This document shows, one piece after another, positions 3,250-8,619 of a DNA stretch of 16,602 bases (position 1 is its first letter; each line of letters begins with the position of its first letter). The translations under genes and the position numbers were made by a program. The DNA lies in NCBI GenBank assembly GCA_910592005.1, contig CAJVPP010002045.1, forward strand, positions 1 to 16,602, in the 5' to 3' direction. The notes beneath the pieces were generated by a model. That model saw nothing but the letters and a program-made list of their open reading frames with translations, did no database searches and had not been told where the DNA came from. The DNA comes from Funneliformis mosseae (Eukaryota > Glomeromycota > Glomeromycetes > Glomerales > Glomeraceae).

Positions 3250-3634
3250 ATGCCTCCAAATCCCTCAAAAACGACTCCTTCCGAAATATTATCCTTATGT
3301 AAAAAATTTTTTTATATAGGTTTTTTATTCTTACCTTGGTTATGGGTTGTTAATGTAATTTACATGTGGCCCTTAACCAAACGGTCAGATATCGGTAAAG
3401 AAATAAAAAAGTGTAAGTTTTTCAATTTCTTTTTTTTTATATTTTTATTTTATTTTATATATATATATATCTTTTTTAATTAAAATTATTTCTTTAGATC
3501 TATATTATTCAATGGCAGGTGCTCTGTTTTGGTTTATCGCACTGTCAACTTGGTATGGAATTTTTGTAAACCAAAGAATTGCTTGGGGGGAATTCGCCGA
3601 TAAAATTATCGTAATACCCATAAGAGGAAAATAA
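3250..3634 (+). CDS. PEN-2, gamma-secretase subunit
   Basis: Small membrane subunit needed for maturation and activity of the presenilin/gamma-secretase intramembrane protease. Two exons, 3250-3412 and 3498-3634, with an 85-bp GT-AG intron (3413-3497); the spliced frame is 99 residues against about 101 in animals. The N-terminal part has LCKKFFYIGFLFLPWLWVVN, matching the PEN-2 pattern of a short cytosolic helix followed by a hydrophobic FLP-LW-VN segment. After the junction comes ALFWFIALSTWYGIF, the second membrane segment, and then an RIAWGEFAD...IP tail matching the family's RxxWG...D...IP ending. Without splicing the first exon would run into a low-complexity Phe/Ile tail, which is intron sequence. 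The start is the first ATG. Yeast lacks the whole complex, so presence here implies presenilin, nicastrin and APH-1 elsewhere in the genome. Confidence 0.9.
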
Positions 3635-6281: not shown

Positions 6282-8619
6282 TCAAGTTTCCACTTTCAAC
6301 GACAAATTTCGATCCTCCTATTATTTCATAAAATTAATAGTCAAGTCAAAGTGTGATAAATCATTTTTTCTTACCGGCAATTCTTGGCTCTTTAATTCTT
6401 TGCTCTTTAATCGGTAATATCGCTCAAGAACTCCGAGGTCATATAATTGTTCCCTAATAAGAATGTTGATGACCACACCCGGAGGACCATAGGCACCGCA
6501 ACAGCAAAGTCTTCAAAAAATCAAATAGTATTTTGTTAAAAAGCAAGGATTTAAGGTGATTGGTCACGTGGATTTAAGTTTAAAATCAATAAATACCGAT
6601 CATGGTACTCTTCCTTTTTATATGGTAAATCAAAATGTACACTATAATCTACGGGATGGAACGCTAAAACGGATGAGAAGCAATCTGTAGTTACAATTAC
6701 AGCTACTTCTGATTTCCAGAAAGATTTGACAATTTCATGTCTGTCTGATTGTTTTGTAGAGGAATGCTAAGTAAATGAATAAAATAAATTTTATCGTTAT
6801 ATAGATGATTATTTTTTTTCTGTAAAAAAAAAAAAGGCATGAATACATAAAATACCATGGCGTAGACGGTCATGTTTTCAAATAAAGTTGTTAGCTTGTC
6901 AGACAACCAATCAACTCGTTCCGAATTATCACAAAAGATTACGGATTTTTGAATATCTACATCCTTGTAAATTTCGCATAACGCATTGAGCTTCTGATCA
7001 TCTTTTTCAACAACCGTGTAATATAATCGCAACTCGTCACTCATATTTACGTCATCAAGAACGATGATAGTGTTATTTGTTATCTTATTTTTAATATCAG
7101 CAAGGGTAAACGTTGTCGCGGTCGTCATCAGAACTTTTTGAGCACTTTTTGGTATTTTATAAATGATGTCGAAAGCTTGTGAACGAAAGTTGCTATTAAA
7201 CATGATACAAGAGTCTTCAACAATAATCGTTTTAATGCGTTGAAAATCGAATTTACGATCCGTCATTAGTCCAATCAATCTACCTGTTCATTCAGTCACG
7301 TGTAAATTGTAACGTTTAAAGTTTTTAAACGACAAATTATTAAATGATCCGTTATTTTACTGACCCGGAGTCCCGACTATGATTTGGTGCCCTTCATTTC
7401 TCAGATTTTCTACGTCCTGTCTCACCGGAATACCACCGATACAAACCAAACATGAAAATCGCATGTGTTGACCTACGACATCGATTAAATCTTGAATCGC
7501 AAGGCACAAATCTTTCGAATGCACGATTATAATTGCTTGGCATGACTTGTCACTTGTTTCAATTTGTTGAAGTAGGGCAGCGATGTAAGTTATGGTTCTT
7601 TCTTCCAGTCGAGGGATTTGGATTACAGCATCCCGACGAGATAATATCGCCATGATCGCACGTTGCTGAATGGATGTCGGTTGATTGTAACTACTTGCAA
7701 GATGTCAATAAAAAAAAAAGAAAAGAAAAGGACGATTAAATCAAACTTTTCAAGGTTAATAATAAAAAAAAAATTTTTTTTTTTATATTAATACCCTAAT
7801 GCATGGATTCCCAACAAAATCTCTGATTTCAAATTCATTTCTTCAAATGTAGAAGCTAGCTGTTGCCAATTATCTTTCAACATCTCGCGTTGATATCCAG
7901 TCGATTGATTTGATTTACCTCTCATTTCAAGACGATCCCTGCCGTCATTTTTAGGTGAAACCGCAGTATCTGTCCGATTCAACTAAATCGAAAAAAAAAA
8001 ATAAAATAAGGGGACGTAATTAAAAAACAACAACAACAAAAAAAAAACTGGCATGGAACATTCCCAAAAGTAAACGCACTTGAAATCGCGGGGAAGGGCG
8101 AGCTGGTACACGTGACAATGCAACCTCTTTGGAAGGTCGAGGCGATTGGATTTCCGATGTAGATCTCAAGTTCAAATCAATGGATGAAGAACCTTCAGGG
8201 CTTAATTTTGTATTGGATCGCTTTCTTTTCATCCTCCTTAATTTCTTTTTTTCACTCAAACTAAATTTTTTCTTGGGCTTATCGGTTAATTCTGCCGAAC
8301 TTAATAAATTTTCTACTTTGGACTCGTTTTGATCATTCTCCTCTTCATTATTTAATGGATGATTTCTCATGTCATTTATGTAATTTATACCACCTTCCGA
8401 TTCGATGGAATCTACGATAGGAAAGACGATTTGCGATACAAACGAGTCAGATATTCCATTAACCAATTGTGCCGCAGCAGGTACATCAATCGTATCATGT
8501 CCGTGAACAAGTTGCAAAGCCTTCACGGCTTCCGTGAGTTTTTCTAGAAGAGTTTTGATTTCAGGCAAGATAGCCAACGAGGTTTGGATATCTTTTAATA
8601 TATTTTCTGTATCAGACAT
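6282..8619 (-). CDS. eIF4A-like DEAD-box protein lacking catalytic motifs (pseudo-helicase)
   Basis: Seven exons: 8080-8619, 7795-7982, 7365-7690, 6856-7283, 6597-6766, 6375-6510 and 6282-6317; six GT-AG introns, all phases consistent, 607 residues. Residues 1-180 are an extension: a Leu/Ile-rich helical start (about 5-37), acidic linker, basic patch 114-138 and Ser/Pro-rich stretch. Residues about 220-600 follow eIF4A: FEEMNL and a good Q motif (GYNQPTSIQQRAI, 243-255), CIGG, IIVGTPGR (346-353), VIFCDN (466-471). The catalytic motifs are gone: AQSGTGKT is IQIPRLEERT (266-275), PTRELA is HSKDLC, DEAD is EDSC (374-377), SAT is TAT (406-408), TDLLARGID is TDCFSSVLAFHPVD (521-534), HRIGRGGR is DRLCCCGAYG (550-559). 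ATP hydrolysis and unwinding should therefore be impossible; a binding or scaffold role on RNA or translation factors is inference. The last exon is less certain: reading through the final donor ends the protein at 614 residues instead. Confidence 0.88.

Follow-up and report, generated by a model that had tools for sequence, protein, structure and literature searches.

An eIF4A-derived family of putative pseudohelicases in arbuscular mycorrhizal fungi

The described systems that come closest to the gene considered here, which belongs to the arbuscular mycorrhizal (AM) fungus Funneliformis mosseae, are the DEAD-box helicases eIF4A (eIF4A1/TIF1) and eIF4A-III/FAL1, the latter being the clamp of the exon junction complex (EJC) that requires ATP to clamp RNA, and the pseudohelicase Utp25/Def of the small subunit (SSU) processome. 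Few dead helicases have been described, and a 2022 paper terms Utp25 the first to be fully validated (PMC9539457). According to the same paper, Utp25/Def has a DEAD-box fold, has lost its motifs and has a disordered N-terminus, features that recur in the F. mosseae protein, but it is described from yeast and human and its vestigial motifs are reported to be dispensable, whereas the family treated here was found in AM fungi alone and its replaced motifs look frozen. The gene lies on a stretch of 16,602 nucleotides (assembly GCA_910592005.1, contig CAJVPP010002045.1; hereafter the window), which is one entire contig (C2045) of an 82 Mb assembly in 4154 contigs. We name the family of its product family A, and with moderate confidence we read the gene as the Funneliformis member of an AM-fungal family of pseudohelicases of eIF4A descent, acting as an ATP-independent scaffold for RNA or ribonucleoprotein (RNP), probably in the nucleus. 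An eIF4A-derived family with an apparently rebuilt and frozen ATP site would be a natural experiment on what the DEAD-box fold can do without an ATP cycle.

The gene and its relatives

Splicing of the minus strand between 8619 and 6282 gives seven exons and 607 codons for a two-lobed, eIF4A-like product. All six introns, of 57-104 bases each, run from GT to AG, and the GC content is 0.385 in exons versus 0.232 in introns; with such a base composition, the chance of a stop-free run of 607 codons is about 1e-19. The parts of the gene are listed below, all on the minus strand of the window.

8080..8619, minus: exon 1, N-terminal extension, residues 1-180 (splice reconstruction)
8506..8613, minus: N-terminal helical hairpin, about residues 3-38 (positions conserved across the family; orthologue model)
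8221..8283, minus: basic stretch with KPKKKFSLSEKKKLRRMKRKR, about residues 113-133, resembling a nuclear localisation signal (in several family members, not in P0010 or P0011)
7795..7982, minus: exon 2, linker and start of lobe 1, up to residue 243 (splice reconstruction)
7365..7690, minus: exon 3, Q motif, degenerate motif I, motif Ia, GG and start of motif Ib (splicing and alignment)
7594..7617, minus: former Walker A, IPRLEERT, residues 268-275 (alignment; orthologue model)
6856..7283, minus: exon 4, remainder of TPGR, motif II (EDSC), motif III and motif IV (splicing and alignment)
7207..7218, minus: former DEAD box, EDSC, residues 374-377 (kept in 13 of 13 homologues)
7117..7125, minus: former SAT, now TTA, residues 405-407 (alignment)
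6597..6766, minus: exon 5, QxxR (motif IVa), motif V and start of motif VI (splicing and alignment)
6375..6510, minus: exon 6, motif VI remnant LCCCGAYG and C-terminal helix (splicing and alignment)
6498..6506, minus: former arginine-finger motif, CCC, residues 553-555 (alignment; orthologue model)
6282..6317, minus: exon 7, final 11 residues and the TGA that ends at 6282 (splice reconstruction)

A less conserved N-terminal extension of about 210 residues precedes the two RecA lobes, both of which are recognised by Pfam (DEAD at 69.3 bits, 4.3e-19, cut-off 26 bits; Helicase_C at 55.2 bits, 9.8e-15, cut-off 23.5 bits), and the orthologue from Rhizophagus clarus is predicted to fold as a DEAD-box protein (AlphaFold2, AF2, and VIA). 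Identity to eIF4A-type proteins is 29-32% (P0015-P0019), and eIF4A is the nearest solved relative by sequence. Like eIF4A, and in human eIF4A1 numbering, the window protein keeps Q59, T83, the GG pair (G136, G137), TPGR (T158-R161), QxxR (Q308, R311), the TTD of motif V (T328-D330) and R359. Unlike eIF4A, it has the long extension, with its hairpin and basic stretch, altered residues at positions where human eIF4A1 contacts eIF4G, and motifs I, II, III and VI replaced and V partly so: G81E and K82R, the latter turning the ATP lysine into arginine, in motif I; D182E, E183D, A184S and D185C in motif II; S213T/A214T/T215A in motif III, which reads TTA in the alignment used; G335V and D337A in motif V; and H358D, G361C, R362C and R365A in motif VI. 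No GxGKT, DEAD or HRxGRxGR is left.

A preliminary description made from the DNA alone had proposed a seven-exon frame open across six introns, a two-domain eIF4A-like fold with the Q motif, GG and TPGR retained, and replacement of motifs I, II, V and VI. The frame and the motif positions proved exact on splicing, with EDSC at 374-377 and DRLCCC beginning at residue 550, and the fold, the retained motifs and the replacements were all borne out, that of motif V only in part and that of motif VI with R359 kept.

We searched 5.8 billion proteins for homologues, scoring the 7995 candidates with the most words in common, of which 103 passed an E value of 0.001. Thirteen of these, which come without exception from AM fungi and represent seven genera, are relatives with 47-98% identity; the remaining 90 comprise other DEAD-box proteins, none above 32% identity. 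The nearest, from Funneliformis caledonium, is 98% identical overall and identical in the lobes (374/374). EDSC, (E/K)ER(T/A) after P(R/H), and TTATTFTLAD each occur in every one of the 13, and DR(I/L)CC(C/S)G in nine, the gene models of P0009 and P0012-P0014 ending or diverging before motif VI; P0005 and P0006 have odd letters near TPGR that are apparent annotation errors. None of the 13 has GxGKT, DEAD or HRxGRxGR, so the idea that this copy is an isolated allele among catalytically intact orthologues, which the preliminary description had named as a way of being wrong, finds no example, and its claim of catalytic death holds by motif criteria throughout the family.

A second search, with the stretch of a Gigaspora protein from EDSC to TTATTFTLAD, returned 11 family members and one unrelated match at E 4.3 among 35 candidates. 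It found no family A protein outside AM fungi among those 35, under exact-word and length filters that could miss members in Paraglomus, Ambispora and Archaeospora and that dropped P0002 and P0003 by length. As far as found, family A is thus confined to Glomeromycotina, the fungi of the most widespread plant symbiosis. A search of the F. mosseae genome gave no further close copy: the other matches that span the lobes reach at most 29% identity. In Entrophospora sp. SA101, family A is represented by two or more diverged proteins (P0009 versus P0010-P0014), and the gene model of P0009 includes a fused Sel1-repeat (PF08238) protein. In keeping with the preliminary description, which knew of no family with this set of replacements, a literature search over open-licence papers yielded none, and the family, eIF4A-derived and motif-dead as judged from its sequences, is new.

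The replaced ATP site and the proposed role

Eight family A rows were aligned to eight eIF4A/eIF4A-III rows and compared by a permutation test. Family A has changed 19 of the 21 listed ATP-site positions; the mean conservation of these 19 is 0.925, and at 14 of them the replacement does not vary within the family. For comparison, 83 positions that lie outside the motifs and are invariant in the references have changed in family A, and 19 of them are invariant there (mean 0.750). The difference in invariance has a permutation p of 0.00015; with six rows, and in two alignments, it is 0.0001. Most of the replacements are thus kept as strictly as the motifs they replaced. The ATP site looks to have been rebuilt and then frozen in its new state, and does not appear to be decaying. 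A predicted helicase fold, lost catalytic motifs and retained constraint together mark the protein as a putative pseudohelicase.

A decaying pseudogene or relaxed copy, its frame open by chance, would fit the loss of the catalytic motifs and the stem branch of family A, which measures 1.48 changes per site in the tree described below. However, the frame is intact across six introns and orthologues persist in seven genera. The lobes are also conserved as well as the neighbouring chromatin gene SWC4 (94.2% against 94.7% identity between F. caledonium and F. geosporum, with 79.6% for the N-terminal part), and most replaced ATP positions are invariant, compared with none of 12 in the second degenerate family treated below. 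The pseudogene reading appears already contradicted, and we give it almost no weight; the earlier argument for selection instead of decay gains from both the invariant replacements and the orthologues that keep the frame.

Positions that contact RNA fared differently from those that contact ATP, 11 of 14 being kept compared with two of 21 (Fisher 5e-5), which argues for binding of RNA or an RNP. In the scaffold reading, the two lobes with most of their RNA-backbone positions would hold RNA; ATP would not be hydrolysed, and the protein would not cycle. It would then act as an ATP-independent RNA-binding protein or RNP scaffold, in a mode perhaps comparable, by analogy, to that of Utp25 in ribosome assembly. 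The conserved N-terminal hairpin may join the scaffold to partners, and the basic stretch, a putative nuclear localisation signal, may bring it into the nucleus. Rather than a relic, the rebuilt pocket (E272/E273/R274, E374/D375/S376/C377 and C553/C554) is probably a surface that has a structural role or binds a partner.

The AF2 model of the orthologue P0004 has helices at 4-17, 22-40 and 119-135 and low confidence at 41-115 and 135-215, so that the N-terminal extension is modelled as a helical hairpin followed by a basic helix. The helix at the former Walker A begins two residues earlier than in eIF4A, and the former arginine-finger site is helical instead of a loop. The best structural match of the R. 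clarus orthologue is eIF4A-III in the EJC, with a root-mean-square deviation (rmsd) of 2.4 over 381 residues.

Several points weigh against the scaffold reading. The lists of 21 ATP-site and 14 RNA-contact positions are our own, and the ATP list omits the Q motif. The Q motif glutamine is an adenine contact, and it is kept in all eight family A rows, so a total loss of nucleotide contacts is disfavoured; T83 is kept in six of eight rows and R359 in seven of seven. K82R, D182E and E183D are chemically mild, and residual nucleotide binding is possible. The model is in a closed conformation, which might have pointed to a permanent clamp; this was rejected as uninformative, since a canonical eIF4A modelled with those same rows closes too. 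Both the partners of the hairpin and the nuclear location are what we infer, and the basic stretch is missing from the Entrophospora proteins P0010 and P0011.

The same pocket could instead have become a new ligand-binding or catalytic site, its set of Arg, Glu, Asp and Cys binding a metal, a redox group or another nucleotide. Cysteines that are both new and invariant stand in what were the pocket motifs (C377, C553, C554) and in motif Ia (C305), and motif II has its Glu and Asp swapped, not lost, next to the kept Q motif glutamine. On the other side, the cysteines would have to meet in space, and C555 is Ser in Acaulospora; we consider such neofunctionalisation unlikely.

Descent from the eIF4A branch and a second degenerate family

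A tree with eIF4A and FAL1 had been proposed as a check in the preliminary description. Our maximum-likelihood tree of 28 rows, with six other DEAD-box rows as outgroup, groups family A and a second family, family B, with eIF4A/eIF4A-III at a support of 100/100; each family forms a single clade (100/100 for A, 100/99 for B). On this tree, family A has its origin in the branch of DEAD-box helicases formed by eIF4A and eIF4A-III. The sister grouping of A and B has 84/84 in the free tree, and four alternatives are not rejected (approximately unbiased, AU, p 0.064-0.258). eIF4A-III/FAL1, for all its structural likeness to family A, has its own canonical gene in the genome (C3262; 710 bits to eIF4A-III compared with 581 to eIF4A-I) whose introns, compared by eye, match in no case in both position and phase, codon 51 being hit in another phase.

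A ribosome-assembly pseudohelicase proper, an orthologue of Utp25 or CMS1, is suggested by the way in which Utp25 likewise lost its motifs yet kept two lobes (PMC9539457). UTP25, however, has a separate gene, C1248 (Utp25_C, 79 bits), and the window protein has no Utp25 match among the four Pfam families listed up to E 1; CMS1 reaches 14.8 bits, where its cut-off is 35 bits. The tree, which has no Utp25 or CMS1 row, sets family A with eIF4A/eIF4A-III against the six DEAD-box rows. Orthology to either is contradicted already, and we rate it as very improbable.

The F. mosseae gene of family B lies on another contig:

C919:11474-13503, minus: second degenerate eIF4A (L016), with its own N-terminal extension

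It reads AKTGQDKFST in place of Walker A, keeps DEAD, has FCGN at motif III and TPNR for TPGR, and has lost motif VI. A protein search that scored 7996 candidates gave seven proteins besides C919 (P0106-P0112), from Glomus, Rhizophagus, Entrophospora and Paraglomus, all seven without GxGKT and HRxGRxGR. The two families share the branch, an N-terminal extension of similar length, the absence of both motifs, and introns. Three core introns agree in alignment column and phase (eIF4A1 position 51, phase 2; 303, phase 0; 359, phase 2), and each family has a phase-0 intron in the N-terminal linker and one near the C-terminal end that cannot be placed in the alignment. The sharing supports a common gene ancestor, though the introns could be simply ancestral, as the comparison holds no canonical eIF4A gene of an AM fungus. 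For an N-terminal domain shared by A and B, hhalign gives a probability of 0.7% (p 0.078), and none of 500 residue shuffles scored as high, a procedure that also destroys helix periodicity. The families differ in that B occurs also in Paraglomus, keeps two of four eIF4G contacts, and has changed 12 ATP-site positions with none invariant, nine of 21 being kept by the majority. Its ATP site therefore appears to be drifting, in contrast to the frozen site of family A, which is thus accompanied in these fungi by a second pseudo-eIF4A.

Descent from this branch also bears on the suggestion, made in the preliminary description, that the protein is a dominant decoy or regulator in eIF4F, binding eIF4G in the place of eIF4A and so blocking or tuning initiation. 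Among solved structures those of eIF4A1 match best (234 bits, compared with 217 for eIF4A-III), and the genome has an eIF4G-like gene (C490, MIF4G at 181 bits). Human eIF4A1 binds eIF4G through D265, E268, D296 and T298, and either of the single substitutions E268R and D296K lowers this binding in human cells (PMC7470955). In family A, D265 is Glu in seven of eight rows, E268 is Lys in six of eight, a reversal of charge, D296 is Asp in none of eight and T298 is kept in three of eight, with row P0010 having a broken gene model in this region. Since these four residues are altered in most rows the decoy is weakly disfavoured, though the references vary too (Gln stands at 268 in two of six eIF4A rows, and both eIF4A-III rows have Asn at 296); we regard it as a doubtful explanation. 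Family B keeps D265 and an acid at 268 in six of six rows, Asp 296 in two of six and Thr 298 in none of six, and by the first two looks the likelier partner of eIF4G. Ahead of its MIF4G domain, the eIF4G-like gene (C490:7993-8733, L038) has an extended series of charged repeats rich in E, K, R and A, e.g. EAEEKARKEQEEKERQEAERKKEEERLA.

Canonical eIF4A and neighbouring genes

With two canonical eIF4A proteins as queries, we found no canonical eIF4A in the 82-Mb assembly, the best matches being eIF4A-III (71-72%) and then family B (39-40%). A helicase census covered 31 loci taken from search hits, with C1278, C3353, C2388 and many Helicase_C-only contigs outside it; 28 loci gave DEAD-type exons, two gave no match and one a weak one. 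By labels that we assigned by eye, these presumably include many of the yeast DEAD-box types, a DHH1-like one among them, and no canonical eIF4A. The missing gene is perhaps an assembly gap, and the scored listings of the two family searches cannot show its absence from AM fungi. It is conceivable, if distinctly improbable, that AM fungi turned eIF4A into two pseudohelicases and have no active eIF4A left; cap-dependent initiation would then run on a dead eIF4A-like subunit together with another helicase, e.g. Ded1. In favour of this reading are the failure to find a canonical eIF4A in an assembly with so many recognisable DEAD-type loci, the introns shared by A and B, and the naming of an R. 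clarus family B protein as eIF4A.

Papers on gene loss in AM fungi do not, in the main-text passages covered, mention "initiation factor", TIF1 or helicase. The BLAST criterion quoted in one of them, a bit score of 100, cannot tell a dead eIF4A from a live one, and under cut-offs of this kind eIF4A-III or family B would count as an eIF4A that is present. One family B protein of R. clarus carries the annotation eIF4A.

Family A is easily missed, because several of its members are named ATP-dependent RNA helicase in the databases or, in the case of fused gene models, SWR1-complex protein 4. The neighbour concerned, SWC4/DMAP1, lies on the minus strand of the window from 5988 downwards, beginning about 290 bases past the stop codon of the family A gene. 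The annotations of F. caledonium and F. geosporum join both genes into a single protein (P0002, P0003), which is probably a mistake of annotation and possibly read-through. Elsewhere in the window are a fungal gene for the gamma-secretase subunit PEN-2 (presenilin enhancer), at 3250-3634 on the plus strand (Pfam, 92.9 bits), and a tRNA-Gln (TTG) gene at 1980-2051 on the minus strand.
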